Notes under the pieces: model-generated
Told to the model about the DNA's origin: nothing
Databases searched by the model: none
Seen by the model: the letters and a program-made list of their open reading frames with translations, nothing else
From: Arthrobacter sp. PsM3
GTDB taxonomy: Bacteria > Actinomycetota > Actinomycetes > Actinomycetales > Micrococcaceae
NCBI RefSeq assembly: GCF_030433895.1
Contig: NZ_JARUXE010000016.1
Coordinates: 1-64,000, forward strand
Length of the DNA stretch: 64,000 nt
Reading direction: 5' to 3'
Translations under genes and position numbers: made by a program
Shown here: positions 24,107-38,820 of the stretch, in pieces
Numbering within the stretch: the stretch's first letter is position 1
How the letters are laid out: the number at the start of each line of letters is the position of its first letter

Positions 24107-24334
24107 CTTATTATCGGCTGGTTGGCAGCGAGCGAATACACCCACCCGATATTCGTCCCCGTATCGCTGCCGGAGTCTCCTGCTGACTCTGCAAATTCGG
24201 AGAGCAATTCAGTCAAAAACTGCCCCGCGGGCAACCGTTTCCGCCTATGTTTGCACCGGATGAAGTCTCGTTGACGGCACGCTCGGGGGCCGAATCCTCC
24301 GCGGAATGACGTCGGTCGATTGAGCGTCGGCTTG

Positions 24335-24555
24335 TTAGTGGATTATCCGACAGCGCACGTGGGTGACGAGGCGGGTCCCGCTCACTTCCGTCGGCTCAAG
24401 CTTAAGGTTCGCGACGCCATCCAGCAGCCGCTCGCCCGCTCCCAGGACGATAGGCGCGATGTGGAGCCGCAACTCGTCAATCAGCCCCGCCGGAAGGTGT
24501 TGGCGGACCGTCGACGCGCCTCCGGCATCCGCCACGTACTTGCTGCCAGCGTCGT
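24335..24555 (-). pseudogene. C-terminal fragment of a second RibD/DHFR-family protein
   Basis: Only the last roughly 70 residues remain (VADAGGASTVRQHLPAGLIDELRLHIAPIVLGAGERLLDGV through GTRLVTHV), fused in frame to the decayed methyltransferase upstream. It differs from the copy at 23069-23570. The N-terminal half is absent. Confidence 0.7.
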
Positions 24556-24619
24556 GTGGCGGAGAAAGGAAGGAGCCCCTGGTAGCGTCAGCGAGCCTGC
24601 CGGCGCTCGTGGAAGGGCT

Positions 24620-25073
24620 TCTGCGCGCGATCATCGCCGTCTGGGGACGCCGGCCTGGATCGGTCCGCGTCTGCACGGCAACGACTTCGAGACCGGCGCG
24701 GACGAGTCTCGCAGCCATGGCATCAGCGGACCAGAAGTAGGCGGTGGTCACCACGTGGGGGAAGGCTTCGCCGTCCGCACCATCAAAGAACCCCGTCAGG
24801 AGGGTTCCTCCCGGGCCAAGGCAGCGCCCGAACTCGACCAGAGCGGACGGAAGGTCTTCTGGACGGAGGTGGATAAGGGAGTACCAAGCGAGGATCCCCC
24901 CGATCTGCCCGACTTGGAGCCCGAGGCCCGTGAACGACGCGACCCGGAACCGACTTCGCCCAGTGCGCGACAAGCCGCTGGTCCTGCTCGTTCGCCTTAT
25001 CCACCGATCCGAACAGCGAGATGTATTCGGACGCGCGCTTGATACACGCATCACGAACCTCTGTCTCCATCAT
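24620..25073 (-). pseudogene. SAM-dependent methyltransferase remnant lacking motif I
   Basis: The N-terminus reads MMETEVRDACIKRASEYISLFGSVDKANEQDQRLVAHW from about 25073, and the C-terminal part reads in another frame (IGGILAWYSLIHLRPEDLPSALVEF, LLTGFFDGADGEAFPHVV, AYFWSADAMAARLVRAGLEVV, TAMIARR). The SAM-binding glycine-rich motif expected between the two is missing, so a deletion and a frameshift have occurred. Confidence 0.72.
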
Positions 25074-25209
25074 CGGCTCCGAGCCGATACGACCCTGTCC
25101 CGCCCGAGCGGCATACTTTGCTTGAGCAGAAGCAGCGGATCGCCAGACGGCACGCCCTGACCCGTATCGCTGACAGAACCGCACCACTGAGCTGGCCAGC
25201 TTCGGGCAG

Positions 25210-25509
25210 TTGTTATTCGGCATGGCCATGGGAGTCGAAGGGCCACTGGAAATTGGCTGCCAGCAGGCTGTGACGCCGGACAGGCTCATAGCCAGCATGA
25301 GTGCCACGAGGCGTTCGGTGAACCGGGGAATGATCGTCATCGGAGCCCCCTTGGGCGGCGTCATGGCCACCGTCGCGGGTACCGGTACGGCGCTCTGGGC
25401 GGCCGCCGCGTTCCTCCTCCTGGCCTCTCTGGTGCTTCCGTTCTCGAGGTTCAGAGACGCGCGGATAGAAGTCCAACAACTTTCCGACGAGGAAGCACTC
25501 ATTCCCTGA
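25210..25509 (+). pseudogene. C-terminal fragment of an MFS transporter
   Basis: About 100 residues resemble the end of an MFS exporter: MAMGVEGPLEIGCQQAVTPDRLIASMSATRRSVNRGMIVIGAPLGGVMA, followed by the last helix (ALWAAAAFLLLASLVLPFSRF). The rest of the transporter is not present upstream. Confidence 0.6.
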
Positions 25510-25642
25510 GCGGTGACCGCGCGCATGGCCCGATGTTAGCTTCGTCACGTGCCGGGTTTTCGTCGAAAATCCGGCTGCGGCGGGCCTCATACTTGAGATG
25601 ACTCCGGCGGACATTCCCCACCGCCAGGCATGAGGAGGGTCC

Positions 25643-25936
25643 ATGAAAACCTTGAAAATCCTTCAGAGCACTGCGAATAGCACTGTGACGAACGAGTACT
25701 TTCCCGCGGCGGCGGTGCTGGCCGGAGTGATCCTGTTCTGGGGCCTCGGGCTCTTCGGTGGCCTGTCACTGCTGAGCGACCACCAGTCGATGCTGACCAC
25801 GCTCACCTGGTTGCTGTTCGTCTACGCCGCTGCGGTGCTCACGCCCATTGCAGGACTGGTTGCGGTAGTGGACCTCTCACGCCGCTGGGTGCGCAACCGG
25901 GCGTCGGGCGTCGCAGGGCCAACCGAGACGGCGTAG
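25643..25936 (+). CDS. Small membrane protein (97 aa), unknown
   Basis: ATG 25643 with a strong GAGGAGGG site just upstream. Two transmembrane helices (AAAVLAGVILFWGLGLFGGLSLL and TLTWLLFVYAAAVLTPIAGLVAVV) and a short basic tail. It looks intact despite the decay around it. Family not recognised. It converges on the YciO-type gene. Confidence 0.65.
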   Translation: MKTLKILQSTANSTVTNEYFPAAAVLAGVILFWGLGLFGGLSLLSDHQSMLTTLTWLLFVYAAAVLTPIAGLVAVVDLSRRWVRNRASGVAGPTETA

Positions 25937-25950
25937 GCCGCCAAACGGGG

Positions 25951-25978
25951 TATTCGAACCGGGGCTATTCGAACCGGG
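25951..25978. repeat. Short tandem duplication at the 3' end of the YciO-type gene
   Basis: A 13-base unit TATTCGAACCGGG occurs at 25951-25963 and 25966-25978. The second copy encodes the last residues and stop of the YciO-type protein; the first lies just beyond. Confidence 0.6.
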
Positions 25979-26585
25979 CCGGGTCGCCCATGCCGCGCCT
26001 GACGACTTCGGCCACGCCGCTGGAGTAGTCGATCACCGTGGTCGGCTCCGCGCCGCAGTCGCCGGAGTCAATCACGGCGTCCACCACGTGCTCCAGCCGT
26101 TCCTTGATTTCCCAGCCCTGGGTCAGCGGCTCGTCCTCATCCGGCAGCAACAGCGTGCTGGAGAGCAGCGGCTCGCCCAGCTCGGCCAGCAACGCCTGGA
26201 CCACCCGGTTGTCCGGGATGCGCACGCCGACCGTCTTCTTCTTCGGGTGCAGCAGCCGCCGGGGGACCTCCTTGGTGGCAGGCAGGATAAAGGTGTAGCT
26301 GCCGGGAGTGACGGCCTTGATGCTGCGGAACACATCGTTGTCGATCTGCACGAACTGGCCCAGCTGGGCGAAGTCCTTGCAGACCAAGGTGAAGTGGTGC
26401 TTGTCATTGAGGTGGCGGATGGCCCGGATCCGGTCGAGTGCGTCCTTGTTCCCCAGCTGCGCGCCAAGCGCATAACAGGAGTCGGTGGGATAGGCGATGA
26501 GCCCACCGGAACGGACGATCTCCACGGCCTGGCTGATGGAGCGTGCCTGGGGGTTTTCGGGGTGAACATCGAAGTATCTCGCCAT
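25965..26585 (-). CDS. Sua5/YciO/YrdC-family protein (YciO-like)
   Basis: 206 aa double-stranded RNA-binding fold of the threonylcarbamoyladenylate synthase superfamily. The motif set fits the YciO branch: GGLIAYPTDSCYALGAQLGNKDALDRIRAIR, a KHHFTLVCKD segment, TPGSYTFILPATKEVPRR, KTVGVRIPDN and PTTVIDYSSG. Threonylcarbamoyl-AMP synthases share the fold, but the YciO branch may not make t6A. ATG 26585. The neighbours are remnants, so no operon is seen. Confidence 0.85.
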   Translation of the reverse strand: MARYFDVHPENPQARSISQAVEIVRSGGLIAYPTDSCYALGAQLGNKDALDRIRAIRHLNDKHHFTLVCKDFAQLGQFVQIDNDVFRSIKAVTPGSYTFILPATKEVPRRLLHPKKKTVGVRIPDNRVVQALLAELGEPLLSSTLLLPDEDEPLTQGWEIKERLEHVVDAVIDSGDCGAEPTTVIDYSSGVAEVVRRGMGDPARFE

Positions 26586-26679
26586 GGGAAGAGCTTACGC
26601 CCGACGGCGGCCCGGCCGTCCAACGTCCGGCCCACCAGTCAGCCTCCGGTCCCCGCGGCGGAGTACGCCGCCCGATTCC

Positions 26680-26930
26680 GTGGACTTGAGTGCGCAGCCG
26701 CCTACCCGGACCGACGCGTCGACGCCGCCCGGGAGCAGGAGCTCTTGCGTGAGCATGACACCATCGTGTTGCAGTTCCCCTGGCACTGGTGTTCGGTTCC
26801 TGGCGTGCTGAAGGAATGGATGGACCAGGTCATCACCTACGGCTTCGCCTACGGTGCCGGCGGGGACGCTTTGCACGGCAGGCGGCTGCAGCTGGTCATC
26901 TCAACACCGGGAGCTGCTTTCCCCGGTGAC
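26680..26930 (+). pseudogene. NAD(P)H:quinone oxidoreductase (flavodoxin-like) remnant
   Basis: A middle slice of a flavodoxin-2-type quinone reductase is readable: AYPDRRVDAAREQELLREHDTIVLQF, WHWCSVPGVLKEWMDQVITYGFAYG, GGDALHGRRLQLVIST. Both the N-terminal flavin-binding start and the C-terminal third are missing, and there is no start codon at a sensible position. Confidence 0.72.
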
Positions 26931-26986: not shown

Positions 26987-27682
26987 TCACGCCGTGAGCG
27001 CCGCGAACATAACCGCCATCGACGCCGCACCAACGACGTCGAGGATGGTGTCCGCACGGCGCCGGCCGTGGAGGGAGCCGGGCCGCCGGAGCAGGTGCAC
27101 GGTCCACACCGCTGTCGCCAGGCCGAACGCCACGGCCAGAACCAGCGCGGTCTGGCTGCTCCAGCCCTGGTCTGGGCCCGGCAGCGCCAGCCCCGGGGCT
27201 GGGACGCCGCCGTGGTGCACGGCCTGGCCCAGGCTGCCGGCAGCTTGGACGCCGGCAGCCTGGATACCGGCAGCTTCCGGGACATGGTCACTGCGGAGGT
27301 CCATGGCCGCGAGCATGTAGGCCATGGCAGCCATGGTCAGCGCGTAGTAGAGCAGGCGGCCGCGGCCGGCGGGTCCCGGGCTGCGGCCCGTCCCGGGCCC
27401 GGCGGCGGGAACAGGCCGCCCGGCCAGGGTTACGGAATGGCGGGAGACAGTGCGGAGGATGTACCACCATGCGGCGAGGCCGAAGAAGAGTATCTGGGGC
27501 AGGACCACCCACCGGACTCCCGGGTTGAGCATCAGCACCATGGCCGCCATCATTGCAGCGTGGAGTCCAAAACCGATCCGGGTGGCCGCCGCCGACTTGC
27601 GGCCGGCGCGGAAGGCCGCGTACAGCAGCGCTGCCAGCAGCAGTGCCGTCAGCGCGCAGCGCAGGAGATCGTTCCCGATCAA
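26987..27682 (-). CDS. DUF5134 domain-containing membrane protein
   Basis: About 231 aa with five or six predicted membrane helices (LLRCALTALLLAALLYAAF, IGFGLHAAMMAAMVLMLNPGVRWVVLPQILFFGLAAWWYIL, YYALTMAAMAYMLAAM, TALVLAVAFGLATAVWTVHLL, DVVGAASMAVMFAALTA). It is the last gene of the cox operon; a possible ATT or TTG start lies close to, or overlaps, the end of the XdhC gene, so the 27682 (TTG) start is a guess. Function unknown; the position suggests a membrane accessory role for CO oxidation, but this is inference. Confidence 0.6.
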   Translation of the reverse strand: MIGNDLLRCALTALLLAALLYAAFRAGRKSAAATRIGFGLHAAMMAAMVLMLNPGVRWVVLPQILFFGLAAWWYILRTVSRHSVTLAGRPVPAAGPGTGRSPGPAGRGRLLYYALTMAAMAYMLAAMDLRSDHVPEAAGIQAAGVQAAGSLGQAVHHGGVPAPGLALPGPDQGWSSQTALVLAVAFGLATAVWTVHLLRRPGSLHGRRRADTILDVVGAASMAVMFAALTA

Positions 27683-27692
27683 CGGTGCCCGG

Positions 27693-28820
27693 TCAATGCT
27701 GCTCGTCGTGGTGGATGCGCTCCCCGAGCTCCCGGAGTGGTTCCCCGCTCCCGCTCCACTGCTCGGCGATGAACTCCGCGGCGATGGACACGGCCGTCTC
27801 CTCCGGGGTCCGGGCGCCCAGGTCGAGGCCCACCGGGCTGTGCAGCCGGGCCAGCGCCTCCTCGCCCAGGCCTGCCTCACGCAGCCTCGCAATCCGGTCG
27901 GCGTGCGTCCGGCGGGAACCCATGGCACCGATGAAGGCGATCGGCGGGGCCCGCAGGGCGACGTCCAGCAGCGGAATGTCGAACTTCGGATCGTGCGTGA
28001 GGACGCACATCACGGTGCGTTCATCCACCAGGCCCTTGTCCAGCTGCTCAGCGAAGTAGCGGTGCGGCCAGGCGTTGACTACCTCGGCCGCGTCGGGAAA
28101 GCGTGCGGGGGTCGCGAAAACCGCCCGGGCGTCACACACCGTGACGCGGTAGCCCAGGAAGGTTCCCAGCCGGGCCAGCGCCGAGGCGAAGTCGATGGCG
28201 CCGAAGACCAGCATCCGCGGCGGCGGGGCGTAGCTGGCGAAGAAGATCCGCATTCCGGCGTCCAGCCGCTCCCCGTCGGGGCCGTAGCTGAGGATGCCCG
28301 AGCGGCCGGCGGCCAGCAGGCCCCGGGTGTCATCGCCCACGGCGTGGTTCGCCCGCTCGGACCCGAGGTCGCCCTCGAAGCCGTCCGGCCGCACAACCAG
28401 GTGCCGGCCCAGCCAGCTGGCGTCCGGGTGTTCGATCACGGTGGCGACACCCACGCGCCGCTCCCCGGCGACGTCCTGCCGCACGGCGTCGAGTTCGGGG
28501 AAGCTGCGCCGGGAGACCGGCTCGACGAAGATGTCGATGATCCCGCCGCAGGTCAGGCCGACGGCGAACGCGTCGTCGTCGCTGATCCCGTAGCGCACCA
28601 GAACCGGAATGCCGTCCTCCCTGACCTGGGTGGCCAGCTCGTACACGGCGCCCTCGACGCAGCCGCCGGAGACCGATCCGGTTGCCTCCCCGCCGGCGGT
28701 GACGAGCATGGATGCGCCAGGGAGCCGCGGGGCCGACTTGAAGGTGCTCACCACGGTGGCCAGGCCGGCGGTGTCACCCTTCTGCCAGCCCGGCATCATG
28801 GCCGCCAGGACATCACGCAC
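27693..28820 (-). CDS. XdhC/CoxI-family molybdenum-cofactor insertion factor
   Basis: 375 aa. The N-terminal XdhC domain (STFKSAPRLPGASMLVTAGGEATGSVSGGCVEGAVYE) and C-terminal NAD(P)-binding-like domain (RMLVFGAIDFASALARLGTFLGYRVTVCDAR, ERTVMCVLTHDPKFDIPLL, FIGAMGSRRTHADRIARL, GLDLGARTPEETAVSI) are both present. XdhC proteins bind and sulfurate Mo cofactor and hand it to xanthine/CO dehydrogenases. GTG 28820 overlaps the coxG stop by eight bases. Second XdhC-type gene in this operon. Confidence 0.9.
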   Translation of the reverse strand: MRDVLAAMMPGWQKGDTAGLATVVSTFKSAPRLPGASMLVTAGGEATGSVSGGCVEGAVYELATQVREDGIPVLVRYGISDDDAFAVGLTCGGIIDIFVEPVSRRSFPELDAVRQDVAGERRVGVATVIEHPDASWLGRHLVVRPDGFEGDLGSERANHAVGDDTRGLLAAGRSGILSYGPDGERLDAGMRIFFASYAPPPRMLVFGAIDFASALARLGTFLGYRVTVCDARAVFATPARFPDAAEVVNAWPHRYFAEQLDKGLVDERTVMCVLTHDPKFDIPLLDVALRAPPIAFIGAMGSRRTHADRIARLREAGLGEEALARLHSPVGLDLGARTPEETAVSIAAEFIAEQWSGSGEPLRELGERIHHDEQH

Positions 28821-29676
28821 GGTCGATCTTCAGCCTTCCGATCGCGCGGATCATCCGGAACGCGGACAGGCGTCCCGTCCAGTAGGAGAGGCACGCCACG
28901 ACCGCCACCAGCGCCAGGACCTTCCCGGGGCTGGAAAGCTGCTCCGCCGCGATCCCCTTTGCGAGGCTGAGGGCGTCCAGGCTGCCGGCCGGCGCCGGTG
29001 CGGGCGACGCTGCAGCGGCCCGGGCGGGTGCGGGGGCGGGCCGGGCCGCTGCGGGCAGGGCTCTCGGAGGCAGGCCGGGAAGTTCGGACGCCGGAGCCGG
29101 GGCAGCCGCCGCGGCGACCTTGGCCGCGGCCGCCTGTGCCTCCGCCTCCGCGTCGAGCCCGGCTGCGGGCACGGGCTCCGGCGCCCCGCCCGCTTCCAAC
29201 GGTCCGGCGGCTGGAGTTCCGGCGGCCGGCGCGGTGACCAGGGCCTGGAGATTGCTGGCGAACAGGGCCATCATCTGTTCGGTGACGCTGCCGATCACGC
29301 CCTTGCCCATTGCCGCGGCCTTGCCGGACAGCGACAGGTCGGCGTTGACGGTGCCCCGGGTGGTGCCGCCGGGCTCTTCCGCCAGCAGCAGGGTCACCGT
29401 GGCCTCGGCGGTTCCCTGGCCGCGGGTTTCCTGGGCTTTGCCGCCCAGCACGGCCCGGTGTTCGGCGGAGTTGCGCTCCACGACGTTCAGCAGGCCCTTG
29501 TACTGCATGTTGACCGGGCCCAGCTTTACGGTCATGCCTACCTGGTAGGCGTCGTCGGAGAGTTTGTTCAGGATCTTGGCGCCGGGGACGCAGCCGGCCA
29601 CGCGCTCGAAGTCCATGATGGTGTCCCAGACCGTGTCGATCGGTGCGACGACCGAGAAAGTGCTGTCTATCTGCAT
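28813..29676 (-). CDS. coxG: CO dehydrogenase accessory protein CoxG (SRPBCC, membrane-anchored)
   Basis: 287 aa. An N-terminal SRPBCC/CoxG domain (MQIDSTFSVVAPIDTVWDTIMDFERVAGCVPGAKI through MALFASNLQALV, about 1-147) is followed by an unusually long alanine/proline-rich linker (about 150-235) and a C-terminal membrane helix (VLALVAVVACLSYWTG). CoxG is thought to help link CO dehydrogenase to the membrane and respiratory chain. The ATG overlaps the coxE stop by one base (TAATG). Confidence 0.88.
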   Translation of the reverse strand: MQIDSTFSVVAPIDTVWDTIMDFERVAGCVPGAKILNKLSDDAYQVGMTVKLGPVNMQYKGLLNVVERNSAEHRAVLGGKAQETRGQGTAEATVTLLLAEEPGGTTRGTVNADLSLSGKAAAMGKGVIGSVTEQMMALFASNLQALVTAPAAGTPAAGPLEAGGAPEPVPAAGLDAEAEAQAAAAKVAAAAAPAPASELPGLPPRALPAAARPAPAPARAAAASPAPAPAGSLDALSLAKGIAAEQLSSPGKVLALVAVVACLSYWTGRLSAFRMIRAIGRLKIDRA

Positions 29677-30941
29677 TAGCTGTTCCCTCTTTCCTTGCGT
29701 AATGGCTGGCCGTCGCCGCGGATTGCGGCTGCCACCTCTGCCAAAGCCGTGTAGTTGTGTCCGCTGACGAAGGCATCGCAATACGGCAGGGCCGCCGCCA
29801 TTCCGCCCGCCAGCGGCTGGTAACCCGGGGCGCTCTTGCGCGGATTGACCCAGATGATCCGGTGCGCGAGCCGGCGCAGCCGCGCCATCTGCGCCGCCAC
29901 CTCTCCGGGGTCCTCCTGCGCCCAGCCGTCCGAGAAGATCACCACGACCGCGCCGCGGGCCACGCCGCGGCGGCCGTGTTCGTCGACGAAGTGCCGGATG
30001 CTGTCGGCTATCCGGGTGCCGCCGGCCCAGTCCGGGGCTGCTTCCGCGGCGCGGGCCAGGGCCTCGTCCGGATCGCGGAGCGCCAGCTGCCGGGTCAGGC
30101 GCGTCAGCCGGGTGGAGAAAACGAAGGCCTCGGCACCGGCAGTTGCCACCGCCCCCTGCAGCAGCGACACGAAGACCCGGGAGTACGGTTCCATCGACCC
30201 GGAGACATCGCACAGCATGACCAGCTTGCGGCGCTGCTCCCGGCGTCGTGCGTACAACAGCCGGGTGGTGTCGGTGCCGGAGCGCCGGGCCGCGCGGACC
30301 GTGGCGCGGACGTCCAGCCGGGCGCTGCTGTGCTCTGATTTGCGGGTGCGGCGGCTCAGTCGCCTGGGGGTGGCGAGCAGCAGCCGGGACGCCAGCCGCC
30401 TGATCTCGAGCACTTCCGCGTCCGAGAGTTGGGCGAACGACATCTGGTGCAGCCGCTCCTCTGTGGAGGCCACGGCCAGCACGGCCTCCCGCTCCGGGGT
30501 GTTGCGGTCCCCGCCGTCCGGTCCTGCGCTGGCAACCACGGGCGCCGTCCGCGGTTGCGGCGGCGCCTGTCCCGGGGCGCGGTCCTCGGCCGGGGAGGGC
30601 CGGGTGCGTGCCTGCTCCGGGCCGCCGGGTGGTGGCGCGGCGGGGGCCACGGGACTGCCGGACCGCGCAGCGGGGTCGAAGCCGCCGCGGAACACCGCGG
30701 AGAAGACGGCGTCGAAGACCGGCAGCTGCTCGCGGGTTGACACCAGCACCACCCGGCACGCCCAGTAAAGCTTGTCGGCATCGCTGGGCGGGATCAGGCT
30801 CAGGGCCTCGGCCAGCCGGACCGCCCGGTCCGGCGAGCAGGAAAGCCCTGCCCGGCGCAGAGCAGAGAGGAACGCCGCTGCCAGGCTGGCCGACTCCACC
30901 GCGGGGAGTGCTGCGGCCGTGGGCTGCAGGGTGCCGGCCAT
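29676..30941 (-). CDS. coxE: VWA-domain protein CoxE
   Basis: 421 aa. The N-terminal helical region (about 1-100), a proline-rich linker, and a C-terminal von Willebrand A domain with an intact MIDAS motif (DVSGSM, Asp245/Ser247/Ser249) and later RIADSIRHFVDEHGRRG and VVVIFSDGW. CoxE pairs with the AAA+ CoxD and is needed for maturation of the Mo-Cu active site in Oligotropha. ATG 30941 overlaps the coxD stop by one base (TGATG). Confidence 0.9.
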   Translation of the reverse strand: MAGTLQPTAAALPAVESASLAAAFLSALRRAGLSCSPDRAVRLAEALSLIPPSDADKLYWACRVVLVSTREQLPVFDAVFSAVFRGGFDPAARSGSPVAPAAPPPGGPEQARTRPSPAEDRAPGQAPPQPRTAPVVASAGPDGGDRNTPEREAVLAVASTEERLHQMSFAQLSDAEVLEIRRLASRLLLATPRRLSRRTRKSEHSSARLDVRATVRAARRSGTDTTRLLYARRREQRRKLVMLCDVSGSMEPYSRVFVSLLQGAVATAGAEAFVFSTRLTRLTRQLALRDPDEALARAAEAAPDWAGGTRIADSIRHFVDEHGRRGVARGAVVVIFSDGWAQEDPGEVAAQMARLRRLAHRIIWVNPRKSAPGYQPLAGGMAAALPYCDAFVSGHNYTALAEVAAAIRGDGQPLRKERGNS

Positions 30942-31873
30942 CAAGGGGTCCCCCCGCCCGTTCCGGCCACGAGCCAGTCGGCCCCGCGGGCGCCGACCAG
31001 TTCCAGGTCGTCGCGGTTCTTGACGACTGCGCCGAGGGTCTGTTCCGCCGTCGTGGCGTCGATCTGTCCGATGCCCAGCACGGCGAGGGCGGAGACCCAG
31101 TCGATGGCCTCGGAGATCCCGGGCGCTTTGGCGAGGTCCAGGGTGCGGAGCTTCGTGATCACCGCGGCGGCCTGCAGGGCCAGCGGGCCGCTGCTGGCCG
31201 GCACGCGGCGGCGCACGATCTCCGCGATCCGTTCCGGGCCGGGGTAGTCGATCCAGTGGTAGAGGCAGCGCCGGGTCAGGGCGTCGTGCAGGTCCCGCGT
31301 CCGGTTGGAGGTCAGGATGACGATCGGCGGGTGGGTCGCCCGGATGGTGCCGAGCTCCGGGATGGTGACCGCGGCCTCGGCGAGCAGTTCGAAGGTGAAG
31401 GCCTCGAACTCGGCGTCGGCGCGGTCGATCTCGTCCAGCAGGAGGACGGCGGGGCGCGGCCCGGGATGTTCGATCGCCTGCAGCAGCGGCCTCCGCAGCA
31501 GGTACTCCGGGCTGTAGAGGTCGGTTTCGGTGACGGAGGCGTCCCGGACTTCCGCGAGCCGGATCCCGAGCAGCTGCCGCTGGTGGTTCCACTCGTAGAG
31601 GGCCTCACCGGCGTCGATTCCCTCGTAGCACTGCAGCCGGTACAGCGGTGTGTCCAGCAGCTGGGCCAGGGCCTTCGCCGCCTCGGTCTTGCCGACGCCC
31701 GCCTCGCCCTCCAGCAGGATGGGCTGCGGCAGCCGGACGGCCAGGAACAGTGCCGTGGCCAGTCCGACGTCGGCCAGGTAGTCGTTGCGGTCCAGAGCCG
31801 AGATCAGCGAAGCGACGTCGGGGATCCGCCGCTGGACATCCTCCTCCGCACCGGTGCGCGCCGCGGTATTCAT
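30941..31873 (-). CDS. coxD: MoxR-family AAA+ ATPase CoxD
   Basis: 310 aa. Walker A GEAGVGKT (about 56-63), Walker B LLLDEIDRAD, sensor 1 region VILTSNRTRDL and the arginine-finger-like RRCLYHWIDYP mark a MoxR AAA+ ATPase. In CO-oxidising bacteria CoxD acts with CoxE in building the [CuSMoO2] centre. ATG 31873 overlaps the upstream cytidylyltransferase stop by four bases (ATGA). Confidence 0.92.
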   Translation of the reverse strand: MNTAARTGAEEDVQRRIPDVASLISALDRNDYLADVGLATALFLAVRLPQPILLEGEAGVGKTEAAKALAQLLDTPLYRLQCYEGIDAGEALYEWNHQRQLLGIRLAEVRDASVTETDLYSPEYLLRRPLLQAIEHPGPRPAVLLLDEIDRADAEFEAFTFELLAEAAVTIPELGTIRATHPPIVILTSNRTRDLHDALTRRCLYHWIDYPGPERIAEIVRRRVPASSGPLALQAAAVITKLRTLDLAKAPGISEAIDWVSALAVLGIGQIDATTAEQTLGAVVKNRDDLELVGARGADWLVAGTGGGTP

Positions 31874-32520
31874 AACGCGCCTTCGAGTGCGGCCAGGGCC
31901 CGGCGGTAGTCCTCTTCCGTGTCGACGTCGGGCGGCACCGGTCCCGGAATATCGAGTGCGGCAACCTCGTCTGCGCGCTGCTCCAGCAGCTTCCAGACTC
32001 CCTTGTCGCCGTGCAGGGCCGCCAGTTCCGGCAGCATCCGCCGGGCGAACGCCAGGGGATGGCCCACGCCGTCGTCGTAGCGGCAGACGGCAATGCCGGG
32101 GACGCGCCGGCCGCTGCCGGGCTCTCCGGTGAACAGGAGCTCCAGCAGCGCCCGGACGGTGTCGCCCCGGACCCCCGGCTGGTCGCCGAGCAGCAGGACC
32201 ACGGCGTCCGTGGCGGGGTGGAGCGCGGCGAGGCCGGCGGCGATCGAGGAGGAACAGCCCCCGCCGGAGTCCGGGTTGGGCACGATCTCGCAGCCGGTCG
32301 TGTCCACCGCCCGCTGCACCTCCCCGGCCGCACCTCCCAAAACCAGCACGGTCTGGTCGAAGCCGCAGCCCCGGGCGGTCGCCAGCACGGCGTCGAGCAG
32401 GACGCCGTGGCCGTAGGGGAGCAGTTGCTTGGGCCGGCCCAGGCGCCGCGACGCCCCGGCCGCGAGGACCAGGCCCGCCGTCCGGTGCGGTGCGGGCGGG
32501 CGTTCAGAGGGTGAGGGCAT
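31870..32520 (-). CDS. MobA-like nucleotidyltransferase (MCD synthase-type)
   Basis: 216 aa. Pattern AGLVLAAGASRRLGRPKQLLPYGHGVLLDAVL near the start, GGCSSSIAAGL, and VVLLLGDQPGV followed by PLAFARRMLPELAALHGDKG is typical of CTP:molybdopterin cytidylyltransferases, which make the MCD cofactor used by CO dehydrogenase. I chose ATG 32520, which has GGAG upstream and overlaps the end of the XdhC-YHS gene by 17 bp. The longer start at 32583 has no support. Confidence 0.88.
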   Translation of the reverse strand: MPSPSERPPAPHRTAGLVLAAGASRRLGRPKQLLPYGHGVLLDAVLATARGCGFDQTVLVLGGAAGEVQRAVDTTGCEIVPNPDSGGGCSSSIAAGLAALHPATDAVVLLLGDQPGVRGDTVRALLELLFTGEPGSGRRVPGIAVCRYDDGVGHPLAFARRMLPELAALHGDKGVWKLLEQRADEVAALDIPGPVPPDVDTEEDYRRALAALEGAL

Positions 32521-33433
32521 AGCGCTCCGGATCTTTGCGGAAGGCCGCGCGGCAGCCAGGCGAGCAGAAGTACACGGTGGCACCGTTGTGCTCGAGCCGC
32601 AGGGTGGATTCGCTGGCGGCGACGGTCATGCCGCAGACGGGGTCGGTCGCCGTCGCCGCCGCAGCAGGCGCGGATACCGGCGCAGGTTGTGCCGCCGGGC
32701 CGGTGTGCCGGCTCTTCGCCCGCTCCTGGATGAGCTGGGCCAGGATCGAGAGGGCGATCTCGCCGGGGGTGCGGGCGCCCAGCTGCAGGCCGGCCGGGGT
32801 GAAGACGCGGGCGCGCTGCGCCGGGTCGACGTCGAGGGATTCCAGCACCGCGGCGCCCCGGGTTCCGCTCGCCACGAGTGCGACGTACGGAACTCCGGCG
32901 CGGAGGGCCGCCTCAAGCGCGATCTCCTCCGCCTTGCCGTGTGAGGCCACGATCAGCGCCGCATCGTCGGCCCGCGGCGCCGCTGATTCACCGTCGGTGA
33001 GTTCCATGGCCAGGCCGACCCCGGAGCCGAGGGTTTCCAGGGCCTGCGCCACCGGCGTCGTGCCGACCACGAGCACCCGGGGCGCGGGGATGCGAGGCTG
33101 GAGGAAGATCTCGATGGCCCCGCCGCTCAGGCAGGGGTTGGAAACCTCCACCGCGCCGTCCCCGGCGCTGCGGGACGGCTCGCCGGGGACCACGCGCAGC
33201 AGCAGCGGTTCCTGAGACGCCAGGACCTGCAGGCTGTACTCCCGCACCGAGGACTCGACGCAGTTGCCGCCCACGAAGCCCTGGATCTCACCGCTGGGCA
33301 TGACCAGGGCCGTGTCCCCCGCGTGGGCGCTGGTGGGATGCTGGGCGCGGACCACCGTGGCGTGCACAAAAGGCTCACGGCGGGAGGCAAGGTCGTTCGC
33401 GCGGGCTGTAAGGATGTCAACAGTGGGTGTCAT
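32504..33433 (-). CDS. XdhC-like protein fused to a C-terminal YHS domain
   Basis: 309 aa. Residues about 1-230 are an XdhC-like region (LVMPSGEIQGFVGGNCVESSVREY, RVLVVGTTPVAQALETLGSG, VASHGKAEEIALEAALRAGVPYVALVAS, GLQLGARTPGEIALSILAQL). After a proline/alanine linker, the last 45 residues form a YHS domain (DPVCGMTV, VYFCSPGCRAAFRKDPERY) of the kind that binds metals such as copper. Adjacent to coxL (1-bp gap). A copper-binding YHS domain would fit assembly of the Mo-Cu site, though this is inference. Confidence 0.85.
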   Translation of the reverse strand: MTPTVDILTARANDLASRREPFVHATVVRAQHPTSAHAGDTALVMPSGEIQGFVGGNCVESSVREYSLQVLASQEPLLLRVVPGEPSRSAGDGAVEVSNPCLSGGAIEIFLQPRIPAPRVLVVGTTPVAQALETLGSGVGLAMELTDGESAAPRADDAALIVASHGKAEEIALEAALRAGVPYVALVASGTRGAAVLESLDVDPAQRARVFTPAGLQLGARTPGEIALSILAQLIQERAKSRHTGPAAQPAPVSAPAAAATATDPVCGMTVAASESTLRLEHNGATVYFCSPGCRAAFRKDPERYALTL

Positions 33434-33434
33434 C

Positions 33435-35828
33435 TTAGATCGGCGGCCTTGCCCGGCCCTGCATGGCGGCCCAGACCCGGGCCGGGGTGCAGGGCATATC
33501 CATGTGGACCACGCCGTAGGGGGCCAGCGCGTCGACGACCGCGTTCACGATCGCCGGCGGCGAGCCGACAGTGGCTGACTCGCCGATGCCTTTCGCACCG
33601 ATGGGGTGGTGCGGTGACGGGGTGACGGTAAAGCCGGTTTCCCAGTCCGGCACCTCCATCGCGGTGGGGATCAGGTAGTCCATGAAGGACCCGCCCAGGC
33701 AGTTTCCGTCGGCGTCGAACTCGATGATCTCCATCAGGGCCATCCCGACGCCGTCGGTGAGTCCGCCGTGCACCTGGCCCTCGATGATCATCGGGTTGAT
33801 CCGGGTGCCGCAGTCGTCCACGGCGATGAAGCGGCGCACCTTGACGTGCCCGGTGCCCGGGTCGATGTCGACCACGCAGATGTAGGCGCCGAAGGGGAAG
33901 GTCAGGTTCGGTGGGTCGTACGTGACCTCGGCGTCGAGATTACCGTCGACCCCTTCGGGCAGCGTCATGGTGCCGTGGGCAGCCATGGCGATTTCGGAGA
34001 TGGTCTTCCCGGCGCTGGGATCGCCCTTGACGAACCAGCGGCCCTTCTCCCACTCGAGGTCCTCCGGTCGGGTCTCCAGCATGGCCGCGGCGATCAGCTT
34101 CGCCTTCTCGCGGACCTTGCGGGCCACGAGGGCGACGGCGCCGCCGCTGACCGGCGTCGAACGGCTCCCGTACGTGCCAAGGCCAAAGGGCGTCTGGTCG
34201 GTGTCCCCGTGGACGACGTCGATGTCCTCCGGCGGGATGCCGAGTTCCTCCGCGACGATCTGCGCGAAGGTGGTCTCGTGGCCCTGCCCCTGGCTTTGCA
34301 CCGAGAGACGGACGACGGCCTTGCCGGTCGGGTGGACCCGCAGCTCGGCGCCGTCGGCCATGCCAAGGCCCACGATGTCGAAGTGTTTGCGCGGGCCGGC
34401 GCCGACGGTTTCGGTGAAGAAGGAGATACCGATCCCCATGAGTTCGCCGCGCCCACGCTTCTCCTGCTGCTCGCGGCGGAGCTCGTCGTAGCCGGCCAGC
34501 TTCATGGACAGCCGCATGGCCGGCTCGTAGTTGCCGGAGTCGTAGACCCACCCGGTCTTGTTGGCGTAGGGGAACTGCTCGGGCTTGATGAAGTTCTTCA
34601 GCCTGAGCTCCGCCGGGTCCATTTCCAGCTTGCGGGCCAGGATGTCCACCATCCGCTCGACAAGGTAGACGGCCTCCGTGACCCGGAAGGAACAGGCATA
34701 GGCGACGCCGCCCGGTGCCTTGTTCGTGTAGACGCCCGTGACGGAGCAGTAGGCGGCCTTGATGTCGTAGCTCCCGGTGAAGATGGAGAAGAAGCCCGCG
34801 GGGTACTTGGTGGGCTGGGCGGTAGCGTTGAACGCGCCGTGGTCCGCCAGGACGCTGGTGCGGACCGCGAGGATCTTGCCGTCCTTCGTGGCCGCGATCT
34901 CGCCCTGCATGATGTAGTCGCGGGCGAAGGAGGTGGACATCAGGTTCTCCGAGCGGTCCTCCACCCATTTCACCGGCTTGCCGGTGACGATCGAGCCGAC
35001 GACGGCAAGGATATAGCCGGGGTAGATGCCGACCTTGTTGCCGAAGCCGCCGCCAATGTCCGGGGACACCACGCGGATCTTGTGCTCCGGGATCCCGGCG
35101 ACGATCGCGAACAGGGTGCGGTGCGCGTGCGGGGCCTGGGTCGTTTCGTAGAGGGTCAGCTTGCCGTCCACGGCGTCGAAGTCGGCGATCGCCCCGCAGG
35201 TCTCCATCGGCGCGGGGTGCACCCGCGGGTAGACCATCTCCTGGGAGACCACGACGTCGGCGCTCGCGAAGACCGCCTCGGTCTCGGCCTTGTCGCCCAT
35301 CTCCCAGTCGAAGATGTGGTTATCCGTCCGGCCCTCGATCTCGTCGCGGATCACTGGGGCATCGGCGTCGAGGGCCTTCCTGGCGTCGATGACCGGGGGC
35401 AGGACATCGTATTCAACGTCGATCAGTTCCAGCGCGTCCCGAGCGGCGTAGCGGTCCTCGGCCACGACGAACGCCACCTCCTGGCCCTGGAAGCGCACTT
35501 TGTCGGTGACCAGGACTGCCTGGACATCCGCGGAGAGGGTGGGGGCCCAGGCGAGATTGAGGCCCAGCAGGTCCTTCCCGGTGATGACGGCGAGGACCTT
35601 CGGGTGGGCCAGGGCGTTGGTGGTGTCGATGGAGACCAGCCGGGCGTGGGCCACGGGGGCGCGCAGGATGGCGCCGTGCAGCATGCCGGGCAGGACGATG
35701 TCGTCCAGGTAGTTGCCTTTGCCGCGGACGAAGCGCGGATCTTCCTTCCGCTGGATCCGGCCGTAGCCGATCGGGCGGTCCGCGTCGCCGGCCGCCGGAT
35801 TGCTGGGCCGTTCGTGGATGACGGTCAT
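33435..35828 (-). CDS. coxL: Aerobic carbon monoxide dehydrogenase large subunit, form I
   Basis: 797 aa catalytic subunit. The MCD-binding fold is complete: PDIGGGFGNKVG, YGSRSTPVSGGA, and a late GAKGIGESATVGSPP with the catalytic-base glutamate. The active-site loop reads AYACSFR at residues 376-382 with the copper-binding cysteine at 379, matching the form I signature AYxCSFR rather than AYRGAGR of form II. Length and motif spacing match Oligotropha CoxL. It overlaps coxS by four bases (ATGA). Oxidises CO to CO2, passing electrons through coxS and coxM. Confidence 0.97.
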   Translation of the reverse strand: MTVIHERPSNPAAGDADRPIGYGRIQRKEDPRFVRGKGNYLDDIVLPGMLHGAILRAPVAHARLVSIDTTNALAHPKVLAVITGKDLLGLNLAWAPTLSADVQAVLVTDKVRFQGQEVAFVVAEDRYAARDALELIDVEYDVLPPVIDARKALDADAPVIRDEIEGRTDNHIFDWEMGDKAETEAVFASADVVVSQEMVYPRVHPAPMETCGAIADFDAVDGKLTLYETTQAPHAHRTLFAIVAGIPEHKIRVVSPDIGGGFGNKVGIYPGYILAVVGSIVTGKPVKWVEDRSENLMSTSFARDYIMQGEIAATKDGKILAVRTSVLADHGAFNATAQPTKYPAGFFSIFTGSYDIKAAYCSVTGVYTNKAPGGVAYACSFRVTEAVYLVERMVDILARKLEMDPAELRLKNFIKPEQFPYANKTGWVYDSGNYEPAMRLSMKLAGYDELRREQQEKRGRGELMGIGISFFTETVGAGPRKHFDIVGLGMADGAELRVHPTGKAVVRLSVQSQGQGHETTFAQIVAEELGIPPEDIDVVHGDTDQTPFGLGTYGSRSTPVSGGAVALVARKVREKAKLIAAAMLETRPEDLEWEKGRWFVKGDPSAGKTISEIAMAAHGTMTLPEGVDGNLDAEVTYDPPNLTFPFGAYICVVDIDPGTGHVKVRRFIAVDDCGTRINPMIIEGQVHGGLTDGVGMALMEIIEFDADGNCLGGSFMDYLIPTAMEVPDWETGFTVTPSPHHPIGAKGIGESATVGSPPAIVNAVVDALAPYGVVHMDMPCTPARVWAAMQGRARPPI

Positions 35829-36385
35829 GACTTCACCTCTGCGTCCTGGGTTTCCGCTGCGATGTCTTCGACCGCGGTGTCCGTGCCGTCGATGACCTCA
35901 TCCACCGTGGCGTCGGTGTCGCCGCCGGCCGGGTGGGCGGCGGCCCACTGGACCGAGCGGACAATCGTGGCGTAACCGGTGCACCGGCAAATCTGGCCCG
36001 AAATGGCCTTCCGGATCTCGGTGGTGTCCGGGTGCGGGTTCTTATCGAGCAGGGCGCGGGCGGTCAGCATCATCCCGGGAGTGCAGAAGCCGCATTGCAG
36101 CCCGTGTTCCTCCATAAAGCCCTGCTGGACGGGGTCCAGGGTGGCGCCGCTGGCGAGTCCCTCGACCGTACGGATGTCGTGTCCGGCAGCCATCGCCGCG
36201 AGGACGGTGCAGGACTTCACCGGCTGGCCGTCCATCAGCACCACGCAGGTCCCGCAGTTGCTGGTATCGCATCCCCAGTGGGTCCCGGTCAGGCCGAGGA
36301 CCTCGCGGATGTAGTGGACCAGGAGCACACGGGGCTCGATGTCGGACGTGACTTCGTTGCCGTTGACGGTCATGTTGATCTGCAT
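35825..36385 (-). CDS. coxS: Aerobic carbon monoxide dehydrogenase small subunit (2Fe-2S)
   Basis: 186 aa with two [2Fe-2S] clusters: Cys39, Cys44, Cys47, Cys59 in the plant-type N-terminal domain and Cys98, Cys101, Cys133, Cys135 in the alpha-helical C-terminal domain. It has an extra acidic tail of about 25 residues after AAAHPAGG, not usual for the family core. ATG 36385; ends inside the first codon of coxL. Confidence 0.96.
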   Translation of the reverse strand: MQINMTVNGNEVTSDIEPRVLLVHYIREVLGLTGTHWGCDTSNCGTCVVLMDGQPVKSCTVLAAMAAGHDIRTVEGLASGATLDPVQQGFMEEHGLQCGFCTPGMMLTARALLDKNPHPDTTEIRKAISGQICRCTGYATIVRSVQWAAAHPAGGDTDATVDEVIDGTDTAVEDIAAETQDAEVKS

Positions 36386-36390
36386 CCGCT

Positions 36391-37269
36391 TCAGCCTTCC
36401 TGGGTCCGCGCGGCGCGGGCACAGGCTTGCCGCAGTACCCGCCGGGTGAGTTCGTCGGCGAGATGCCGTTTGTAGTCAATCGGGCCGCGCTGGTCGGCCA
36501 CGGGATCACAGGCTGCCGCGGCGAGCCGTCCGGCCTCCACGAAAAGTTCCTCCCGGGGCTGCTGGCCGCGGAGCAGGCCGGCGGCCTCCGCGACGGTGTG
36601 GGCAAGCCCGAGGGCGGTGAGTCCGACGGCGGCGTCGGCGATGGTGCCGTCCGCTGCAAGGGTCACGGACGCGCCGGCGGCACCGACGGCCCAGTCTCCC
36701 ACCCGGCGTTCGACCTTCTCGTAGGCGCTGCCGGCACGGGGGCGGATCGGGAATCGGAGCTCGCACAACAATTCGTCCTGGCCCACCGCCGTTTCATACG
36801 GCCCGCGGTGGAAGTCGGCCATCGCCAGGATGCGCTCGCCGGCGGGTCCCCGGATCACGGCTTCCGCACCCAGCACGTCGCACACCGTGGACAGGTCCTC
36901 TGCGGGGTCGGCCTGGCAGAGCGACCCGCCGATGGTTCCGCGGTTGCGGACGACCGGATCGGCGATCACGGCTTCTGCGTCGCGGACGATGGGAAAGAGC
37001 GCCGCAATTTCGTCCGACTCCAGCAGTGTCGTGTGCCGCGTCAGCGCACCGACGCGCAGTTTGTCGCCGTCGCGGAGGATGAAGTCGAGTTCGTAGAGGT
37101 CATTGATGTCGATCAGCCACTCGGGCCGGGAAAGCCGGAGCTTCATCATCGGCAGGAGGCTGTGGCCGCCGGCGATGACCCGTGACTCCGCGCCGTGGCG
37201 CGAGAGGAGTTCCAGGGCGTTGTCCACGGAAGTGGCCCGCACGTAGTCGAAAGGAGCCGGAATCTGCAT
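36391..37269 (-). CDS. coxM: Aerobic carbon monoxide dehydrogenase medium subunit (FAD)
   Basis: 292 aa. The FAD-binding PCMH motifs AGGHSLLPMMKLRL (about 33-46) and GTIGGSLCQADPAEDL (about 110-125) are present, then a C-terminal CO dehydrogenase flavoprotein domain. First gene of the operon in the order M-S-L, as in form I clusters. Its upstream region is shared with the divergent LysR gene. Confidence 0.95.
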   Translation of the reverse strand: MQIPAPFDYVRATSVDNALELLSRHGAESRVIAGGHSLLPMMKLRLSRPEWLIDINDLYELDFILRDGDKLRVGALTRHTTLLESDEIAALFPIVRDAEAVIADPVVRNRGTIGGSLCQADPAEDLSTVCDVLGAEAVIRGPAGERILAMADFHRGPYETAVGQDELLCELRFPIRPRAGSAYEKVERRVGDWAVGAAGASVTLAADGTIADAAVGLTALGLAHTVAEAAGLLRGQQPREELFVEAGRLAAAACDPVADQRGPIDYKRHLADELTRRVLRQACARAARTQEG

Positions 37270-37357: not shown

Positions 37358-37379
37358 GTCATAAGCGAAAGGTTATGAC
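37358..37379. promoter_or_regulatory. Candidate LysR operator between coxM and the regulator
   Basis: Perfect inverted repeat GTCATAA (37358-37364) and TTATGAC (37373-37379) with an 8-bp spacer. It lies immediately before the LysR start (GTG 37382) and about 90 bp upstream of coxM, placing it well for autorepression and for control of the cox operon. Confidence 0.6.
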
Positions 37380-37381
37380 CC

Positions 37382-38377
37382 GTGTCGATGACGTTGAGCC
37401 AGCTGCGCACGTTCGCCCTCGTGGCCCGTCTGGGCTCGCTCCACGCTGCCGCGGAGACGCTCGGCGTCAGCGAACCCGCTGTTTCCGCCGCCTTGACGGC
37501 GCTCCGGCAGGACCTCGGCGATCCGCTCTTCGTGCGCGCCGGAGGCGGCATTGCGCTGACCCCGGGCGGCCGGGCGCTGGCCGATTATGCCCAGGACATC
37601 GTCGGGCTGGCGGACCAGGCCCGCTGGGAAGTGTCCCACGCCAAGAACGACGCCGGCCGGCTGAAGATCGCTGCCACCGCCCCTTTTGCCGAACATGCGG
37701 CCGGCCGGCTGCTGGACCTTTTCACCAAACGTGTTCCCGGCGCTTCGGTGGATGTGGTGGTCAAGTCCGCCGAGGACCTTGCCTCGCTCCTGCAGGAACG
37801 GGCGTACGACATCGCCCTGGGTGCCCGGCCGGTGGTGCCAGTCGCCCCGGCCGGGACTGACGGGACGCATCCGGGCCTGGATTGTGTTCCGTTCCTGCGC
37901 TACCAGCGCACCCTGGTCGCGGCGCCAGGGCATCCGCTGTCCCGGCTTCCCGGGCCGGTCTCCGTGGCCCGGCTGCTGGACCGGCCGTGGTTTGCCGGAC
38001 CGGCGGGCATCCAGGACAGTTCGGAGGAGGGCCGTTGGCTGGCGTCGACGGGGGTGGTGCCGGAGATCATCCGGCTCAGCAGCGAGACGGAAGCGCTGGC
38101 GGCGGTCCGCGCGGGGGAGGGCATCATGCTGGCACTCGGCCACATCGTCCGCGCCGAACTGCAGAGCGGGGTCCTCGTCCGGCTGCCCGTCGTCGGGACG
38201 CCGGTCACCGGCCTGTGGTGGGCGAGCACCCTAAACAACCACCGGACCACCACGATGGCGCGGACGCTGCAGCGGTTCGCCGGCACCGCCGACGCGACAG
38301 CAGCGATGGTTGCCCCCGGCGGCTCCCGGGGACTTGAACGCCGGGGATCGAAGTTCCACGTCGCGTTGTGGAGCTGA
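37382..38377 (+). CDS. LysR-family transcriptional regulator, divergent from cox operon
   Basis: N-terminal LysR helix-turn-helix (LSQLRTFALVARLGSLHAAAETLGVSEPAVSAALTALRQDLGDPLFVR) and a periplasmic-binding-like effector domain (about 92-300). 331 aa from GTG 37382; ATG 37388 is possible. It is divergently placed from coxM with a palindrome in the gap. Likely regulates CO oxidation; the effector is unknown. Confidence 0.88.
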   Translation: MSMTLSQLRTFALVARLGSLHAAAETLGVSEPAVSAALTALRQDLGDPLFVRAGGGIALTPGGRALADYAQDIVGLADQARWEVSHAKNDAGRLKIAATAPFAEHAAGRLLDLFTKRVPGASVDVVVKSAEDLASLLQERAYDIALGARPVVPVAPAGTDGTHPGLDCVPFLRYQRTLVAAPGHPLSRLPGPVSVARLLDRPWFAGPAGIQDSSEEGRWLASTGVVPEIIRLSSETEALAAVRAGEGIMLALGHIVRAELQSGVLVRLPVVGTPVTGLWWASTLNNHRTTTMARTLQRFAGTADATAAMVAPGGSRGLERRGSKFHVALWS

Positions 38378-38502: not shown

Positions 38503-38820
38503 ATGACTTTGACCCGGGACGAAGACAGCGCGCTGCGGCACTGGAGTACCCGCCTGATCCAGGCGCTGCAGATCCTTGATCTGGAAGTGGACCACGAGAA
38601 CATCGTCCAGCTCGCGGACGAGTCGCTGAAAGCCGTCGGGCCGCACGCGGATGCCATCAGCGCCTTCATCGTCGGCTACGCCGCGGGAACCGCGTCCACC
38701 GACGGCCGGAAGAGCACGCAGGACGCCGTCCACGCCGCGTCCAACAAGGTCATTGAGCTGTGTGAGCACGGCGAGTCCGGCGGCCCCGATGAAGAGGGCT
38801 GGGCCAAGCGGGCCCAGTAG
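38503..38820 (+). CDS. DUF6457 family protein
   Basis: 105 aa, mainly helical (LRHWSTRLIQALQILDLEVDHENIVQLADESLKAVGPHADAISAFIVGYAAG). ATG 38503 with GAGGAG upstream. Members of this small family are often found next to molybdenum cofactor or formate dehydrogenase genes, as here. Function unknown. Confidence 0.8.
   Translation: MTLTRDEDSALRHWSTRLIQALQILDLEVDHENIVQLADESLKAVGPHADAISAFIVGYAAGTASTDGRKSTQDAVHAASNKVIELCEHGESGGPDEEGWAKRAQ

Follow-up and report, generated by a model that had tools for sequence, protein, structure and literature searches.

The locus described here raises the question of how copper is inserted into form I carbon monoxide (CO) dehydrogenase. It lies in a stretch of 64,000 nucleotides from Arthrobacter sp. 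PsM3 (contig NZ_JARUXE010000016.1, positions 1 to 64,000; hereafter the window), in which a first-pass annotation had placed a complete form I operon at 26987-37269. We found that one of the maturation proteins encoded there, CoxF, ends in a YHS domain, which that annotation had missed. Nine minus-strand genes, at 27693-37269, make up the cox operon in the order coxM-S-L-F-mobA-D-E-G-I:

36391-37269, minus strand: coxM, flavin adenine dinucleotide (FAD) subunit (Pfam FAD_binding_5 and CO_deh_flav_C)
35825-36385, minus strand: coxS, 2[2Fe-2S] subunit (Pfam Fer2_2 and Fer2)
33435-35828, minus strand: coxL, form I Mo-Cu catalytic subunit (AYACSFR, Cys379, Gln231, Glu750; TIGR02416, tree and residue counts)
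32504-33433, minus strand: coxF, XdhC_CoxI and XdhC_C domains with a C-terminal YHS domain at residues 263-306 (Pfam; conservation over 74 and 62 rows; AlphaFold2)
32516-32647, minus strand: part of coxF that codes for the YHS domain (Pfam PF04945), predicted ligands D264, C267, C290 and C294
31870-32583, minus strand: MobA/MocA-like molybdenum cofactor cytidylyltransferase (Pfam NTP_transf_3)
30941-31873, minus strand: coxD, AAA+ ATPase, molybdenum sulfuration by homology (Pfam AAA_5)
29676-30941, minus strand: coxE, VWA protein (Pfam VWA_CoxE, 1.3e-57)
28813-29676, minus strand: coxG, SRPBCC domain (Pfam COXG)
27693-28820, minus strand: coxI, canonical XdhC with a CGG motif, without YHS (Pfam XdhC_CoxI and XdhC_C)

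Coordinates and Pfam matches bear out the coxM-S-L order that had been noted, and the AYACSFR motif with Cys379, the molybdopterin cytosine dinucleotide synthase, CoxD, CoxE, CoxG and two XdhC proteins are likewise all present on the minus strand. The tight junctions also hold, with gaps of 1 or 5 bases and otherwise overlaps: coxM/S, S/L and L/F show a 5 bp gap, a 4 bp overlap and a 1 bp gap, and mobA/D, D/E, E/G and G/I overlap by 4, 1, 1 and 8 bp. The mobA gene overlaps the end of coxF by 80 bp with its listed start (32583) and by 20 bp with ATG 32523, which is the likelier start; its best NCBIfam match, TIGR03310, falls below that model's cut-off. The CoxG translation contains a Pro/Ala-rich linker and a C-terminal hydrophobic stretch. 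Three details of the earlier description require amendment. The two XdhC proteins are unlike each other, since a C-terminal YHS domain is present on the first and not on the second; the range should begin at 27693, as 26987-27682 encodes a DUF5134 membrane protein; and the operon is complete in its structural and maturation genes, whereas no MHYT-type regulator, as in alphaproteobacterial clusters, was seen among the window proteins scanned. The gene set is not a chance assembly, because it recurs in many other actinobacterial loci.

We examined the identity of CoxL in several ways. The protein scored 1377.9 bits against TIGR02416, the aerobic CO dehydrogenase equivalog (cut-off 991.15). A quick tree of 53 CoxL-like proteins, the phylogenetic check that had been proposed, did not group it with form II: 35 form I rows, including that of the window, lay on one side of a branch with a Shimodaira-Hasegawa-like approximate likelihood ratio test (SH-aLRT) value of 100, and the rows named as long branches were outside this clade. 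Form II enzymes carry the signature AYRGAGR, which the window CoxL lacks, as it lacks a place in the form II clade. Its Gln231, Cys379, Ser380, Phe381, Arg382 and Glu750 correspond to Gln240, Cys388, Ser389, Phe390, Arg391 and Glu763 of Oligotropha (Afipia) carboxidovorans, which we take to form the active site. These six residues were kept in 158-159 of 159 form I rows (the cysteine in 159/159), rows that had been chosen by the presence of CSFR. The residue before the cysteine is alanine in 103 of the 159, as in the window, arginine in 54, as in O. carboxidovorans, and serine in 2. Among the best 30 of 1117 plasmid records, CoxL identity was 55-75% in 19 and 44% or less in the other 11. The form I identification, which the first-pass annotation had made, stands because the TIGR02416 cut-off is passed, the protein falls in the form I clade and the active-site residues are kept; judged from its genes, the operon is almost certainly a form I Mo-Cu CO dehydrogenase operon, and an ordinary one within this known class.

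YHS domains, like TRASH domains, are modules for metals, YHS being of the copper-binding type. The CoxF domain matched PF04945 at E 9.9e-13 (48.3 bits, cut-off 30.3), and it was the sole YHS match in the 4.7 Mb genome (E 0.01); the same search gave matches in 5 of 14 control genomes. Conservation was assessed in an alignment of 74 CoxF rows, four of them without YHS (A3), and in one of 62 YHS-bearing rows from which plasmid records were excluded (A4). All four predicted ligands were kept at 90% or more over A3, and D264, P265, C267, M269, V271, C290 and C294 were invariant over A4. An AlphaFold2 model of CoxF had a mean predicted local distance difference test (pLDDT) score of 92.2, with confident XdhC and YHS parts separated by a weak linker near residues 241-260 (block pLDDT means 67 and 59). 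The Foldseek rows shown were six XdhC chains and weak matches, and held no information on the YHS part. CoxF of the window has XdhC_CoxI and XdhC_C, adjoins form I coxL and contains a CxSxG motif, and differs in domain make-up from O. carboxidovorans CoxF, which has two XdhC domains only; we call it a CoxF variant because YHS is added to the two XdhC domains. Other YHS domains occur elsewhere in the genus: in two genomes (L017, L013) they lie in tandem in a membrane permease frame, at its end or close to it.

To describe how the domain is distributed, XdhC-family frames from 176 loci (L023-L198) were split by best match to the window CoxF or CoxI. YHS was present in 117 of 150 CoxF frames and absent from 28, the other 5 being cut by contig ends; it was found in 0 of 94 CoxI-type or other XdhC frames, and for 22 of these 94 the closest CoxL-like gene on the same strand is of form II. 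This difference (117/28 versus 0/94, cut frames dropped) gives a Fisher p of 1.9e-41, a value that ignores relatedness and a few loci fetched twice. By source, frames with YHS, without it and cut numbered 5/10/0 in plasmid records, 59/15/4 in genome_contigs, 7/0/0 in close relatives and 46/3/1 in the phylum sample. The YHS and XdhC profiles were built from the very loci they scored; the genome_contigs set is biased to near kin because it is the best 80 of at least 583 loci; and the plasmid records were hand-picked from 30 listed rows and provided the only route to alpha-, beta- and gammaproteobacterial, archaeal and Chloroflexota genomes. The phylum sample is the fairer set, with 50 CoxF frames in 53 regions fetched from 62 places with CoxL at least 54% identical. 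The places left out of it are the window, G065, G045, G054 and the partial ones G196, G122, G050, G313 and G185; for G144 the contig with CoxF was taken.

The 117 domains include two duplicates, and 112 of the 115 distinct ones keep the pattern D-x2-C...C-x3-C; 2 have asparagine at the aspartate position, and one, from Deinococcus (L027), is degenerate. A second feature also separates CoxF from the other frames. The CxSxG motif around Cys101 was present in 147 of 150 CoxF frames and in 0 of the 94 others, 61 of which show CGG, and Cys101 was invariant over the 74 rows of A3. The CoxF query was run at E 1e-15 against 396 actinobacterial genomes, and CoxL matches were taken up to E 1e-200; by hand count from the listings, CoxF had matches in 60/60 genomes with CoxL at least 54% identical, in 0/14 with only 44-48% identical CoxL and in 6/322 others. 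Four of these six extra matches (L200, L201, L202, L205) directly adjoin a fragment of CoxL that the contig end truncates, L204 is itself at the edge of a contig, and L203 is a short piece in whose 11.6 kb no CoxL was found; the YHS motif is present in all six, which are outside the 150 frames.

A connection between CoxF and copper has been reported in O. carboxidovorans, in which coxE and coxF mutants yield CO dehydrogenase without copper, with Mo-SH or Mo-oxo sites, and CoxD is needed for the sulfur (PMC4240915). The same work names a suspected copper-binding site in CoxF, MCPSHGTM (PMC4240915). This sequence holds exactly the CxSxG motif, and its methionine and histidine are not kept in the window protein (PCLSGGAI). 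A YHS domain makes an adenylyl cyclase of Mycobacterium phlei respond to copper and not to zinc, iron, chromium, cobalt or nickel, one aspartate and three cysteines being the probable ligands, the last two spaced C-x3-C (PMC4626032). The window domain is likewise C-terminal, with the same D, C, C, C pattern and C-x3-C spacing; the M. phlei domain is fused to the cyclase and described as a sensor (PMC4626032), whereas that of the window is fused to an XdhC-type maturation factor.

Together, these observations suggest an explanation that we regard as probable, if not strongly so: the window would hold the form I operon of an Arthrobacter-like soil actinobacterium in which the CoxF YHS domain serves as a tethered copper site that completes the Cu-S-Mo centre. 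By homology, CoxMSL would oxidise CO to CO2 and pass the electrons to the respiratory chain, the MobA-like protein would produce the cofactor in its cytosine dinucleotide form, CoxD would sulfurate the molybdenum, CoxE would act with CoxF in copper insertion, CoxG would link the enzyme to the membrane and CoxI would be a standard XdhC chaperone. CoxF would hold a copper ion on its YHS domain through Asp264, Cys267, Cys290 and Cys294, and the flexible linker of about 20 residues would swing it to the XdhC part near Cys101. From this CoxF-specific site the copper would pass to the Mo-SH of CoxL, forming the Cu-S-Mo centre at Cys379.

An alternative, which we consider unlikely, is that the domain is a copper sensor and gate, so that CoxF is switched by copper while the copper inserted comes from elsewhere. 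This would resemble the M. phlei protein, which copper binding is reported to switch on (PMC4626032), and it fits the alphaproteobacterial CoxF proteins that manage without YHS. However, CoxF itself has already been linked to copper insertion (PMC4240915), and the Pfam matches of the remaining operon proteins contain no other candidate copper donor. Less probable again is a structural or docking module that binds another metal, such as zinc, or none. A TRASH domain has been solved with cadmium, whereas the structure of the toluene-4-hydroxylase YHS domain is metal-free (PMC4626032), and the Deinococcus copy has lost ligands and kept the domain; yet the ligand pattern, with D or N first, is present in 114 of the 115 distinct domains, and the Cys/His-rich tails described below, on some CoxF proteins without YHS, fit metal binding better than docking. 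It is very improbable that the cluster instead encodes a molybdenum hydroxylase that acts on something else, such as an aldehyde or xanthine, or one of form II. CoxM and CoxS do match glyceraldehyde and xanthine dehydrogenase models, but below their cut-offs, and CoxL passes TIGR02416, sits in the form I clade and has Cys379, Gln231 and Glu750.

Several observations count against a copper-donor role for the YHS domain, or limit its generality. All 9 alphaproteobacterial CoxF proteins examined are without YHS, including that of O. carboxidovorans; the domain is not needed in every lineage, because this bacterium makes a copper enzyme without it. The O. carboxidovorans coxF mutant is also without CoxE protein (PMC4240915), so that CoxF's own part is not separated from that of CoxE. 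A further 19 uncut CoxF frames lack YHS (18 distinct, L086 being the same as L139). At one locus, L095, coxD and coxE accompany form I coxMSL, and the fetched flank holds no CoxF frame. Finally, the Pfam YHS model reports 48 of the 74 A3 rows at E 0.001, whereas 70 were counted as YHS; the others were called by the profile made from the same loci, and 16 A3 rows match a related TRASH model.

The CoxF proteins without YHS fall in different settings. Those of Nonomuraea and kin (L024, L067, L099, L100, L101, L103, L107) are in loci of the M-S-L-F type, beside form I coxMSL, with no coxD or coxE in the fetched flank. Others are in L046, L055, L057, L070, L071 (mycobacteria), L192 and L194, and the L194 CoxF end may be broken, because the match to the CoxF query runs past a stop codon. 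Several CoxF proteins end in a Cys/His-rich tail and not in YHS (HHCDAHGH, CHGHG, HHRCH, HCAAHGH, CCGHG, GGGHCCG; L046, L057, L070, L192, L086 (= L139), L091), and in L046, L057, L070 and L192 the tail gives the impression of a substitute for the metal site. L055, L071 and L105 have neither YHS nor such a tail, and L080 is degenerate.

CoxE was present in the locus for 82 of 98 CoxF frames with YHS and for 15 of 25 without it (at least 4 kb of room; Fisher p 0.014, relatedness ignored). That YHS disappears simply because coxE is lost is a weak explanation: 15 loci without YHS have CoxE, and 16 others without coxE in view keep YHS. The CoxF of Thermomicrobium roseum (L026), a demonstrated atmospheric CO oxidiser (PMC6794299), has YHS, with no coxD or coxE in the fetched flank.

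On a quick, unrooted tree of the CoxF XdhC domains (110 rows), the YHS state requires 9 changes versus 18.7 in shuffles, and 9 may be too many because 3 of the 20 YHS-less rows (L092, L106, L177) are cut by contig ends. Outside the actinobacteria, YHS was found on the CoxF of T. roseum, Natronorubrum, Paraburkholderia and Caballeronia (one locus each). One possible history, which we put forward tentatively, is that the CoxF YHS domain is an ancestral copper-donor site for the Cu-S-Mo centre, common to actinobacteria, Thermomicrobia, haloarchaea and Burkholderiaceae, that the YHS-less alphaproteobacterial CoxF is derived, and that some mycobacteria swapped the domain for a Cys/His-rich tail. 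The term ancestral is drawn here from the spread over phyla, because an unrooted tree cannot tell gain from loss. MHYT proteins as copper donors that replace YHS in alphaproteobacteria were also considered, and this idea was given up since CoxC, an MHYT protein, acts as a CO-responsive repressor and uses copper for sensing (PMC11347149).

In a wider comparison, O. carboxidovorans OM5 (plasmid pHCG3) also has coxMSL and homologues of D, E, F, G and I, with a CoxL that is 58% identical and has the same active-site residues. Its CoxF follows CoxE and is without YHS, whereas the window CoxF follows CoxL; MHYT proteins are annotated there; and two genes set the window apart from O. carboxidovorans, a MobA-like one within the operon and a LysR gene that adjoins coxM and is divergent. 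Actinobacterial operons (Arthrobacter, Cryobacterium, Geodermatophilus, Mycobacterium) have the same M-S-L-F order, CoxL 75-92% identical and YHS on most CoxF proteins, and vary in the place of coxI and the order of coxE and coxG; some mycobacterial CoxF tails are Cys/His-rich and not YHS.

The operon is flanked by three features that were examined further:

26987-27682, minus strand: DUF5134 membrane protein (Pfam PF17197), TTG start at 27682, 10 bp downstream of coxI and co-directional
37359-37378, no strand assigned: inverted repeat TCATAA-N8-TTATGA, between coxM and lysR
37382-38377, plus strand: LysR-type regulator, divergent (Pfam)

The DUF5134 gene is not a cox gene. Its protein has Met-rich helices, and a role as a copper importer of the operon was considered and dropped because it was matched in just 1 of 176 loci; this locus, L179, belongs to a genome of the same genus with a CoxF 97% identical to that of the window. 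A divergent LysR homologue lies less than 900 bp from coxM in 23 of 176 loci, and the window gene is likely to regulate the cox operon. The repeat, a putative LysR operator, has one match in the window (2 mismatches or fewer) versus 0.08 expected. It occurs at the same place in 3 of 205 loci (L179, L180, L181) and is absent from L182 and L040, both of which have a nearby LysR gene. A sigma-70 promoter scan found no site, terminator-like sites numbered 4, as shuffled sequence would give, and a scan of viral_contigs yielded 5 pattern matches, none of them a relative.

Beyond the DUF5134 gene, 24300-26900 holds gene fragments (a Flavodoxin_2 piece, an RibD_C and weak methyltransferase piece, and a weak major facilitator superfamily piece) among which lies an intact Sua5/YciO/YrdC gene (25965-26585). 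GC content is lower at 22-26 kb of the window, and 24300-26900 looks like a decayed or recombined border adjoining the operon. On the other side are a DUF6457 gene (38503-38820) and an FdhF/YdeP-type molybdoenzyme (39033-41384; TIGR01701 above its cut-off), and an erythromycin esterase family protein is encoded at 46342-47655 (Pfam 2.2e-117).

Actinobacterial form I operons of this sort are very usual: at least 583 CoxL relatives were confirmed in genome contigs, and the actinobacterial loci are largely in M-S-L-F order, often followed by MobA and then by D with E and G. The operon is patchy in the window's genus, with a full-length CoxF match in 6 of 24 same-genus genomes (G012, G014, G018, G019, G022, G024). 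No match to the large chain of ribulose-1,5-bisphosphate carboxylase/oxygenase (RuBisCO) was found in this genome, which suggests that CO would serve for energy and not for growth on CO2 by that route, and is consistent with a carboxydovore. Mycobacterium smegmatis and T. roseum are reported to oxidise atmospheric CO with such enzymes when starved (PMC6794299). By homology with such relatives, the Arthrobacter enzyme may use CO at atmospheric levels, with an affinity to match, and be expressed in starvation.

The CoxF-YHS variant is widespread in sequence data, and an XdhC and YHS architecture is likely to be present in domain databases. We found no discussion that pairs YHS or TRASH with XdhC or CO dehydrogenase in the literature searched, a scope that leaves out most subscription journals and preprints. 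No XdhC is among the YHS proteins named in the consulted part of the M. phlei paper (PMC4626032), and a word search of the main text of a 2026 CO dehydrogenase survey (PMC13240472) returned no CoxF, XdhC, YHS, CoxE or maturation. The variant bears on the question of copper insertion into CO dehydrogenase, for which the existing model, as described in PMC4240915, is drawn from a single alphaproteobacterium and from a putative, weak motif in CoxF; a copper-type domain on most actinobacterial CoxF proteins, and on those of a few other groups, offers a definite and testable copper site. The CoxF query could also help genome surveys to separate form I carriers from genomes with form-II-like genes only, because among the 396 genomes it marked form I carriers and no form-II-like-only genome.

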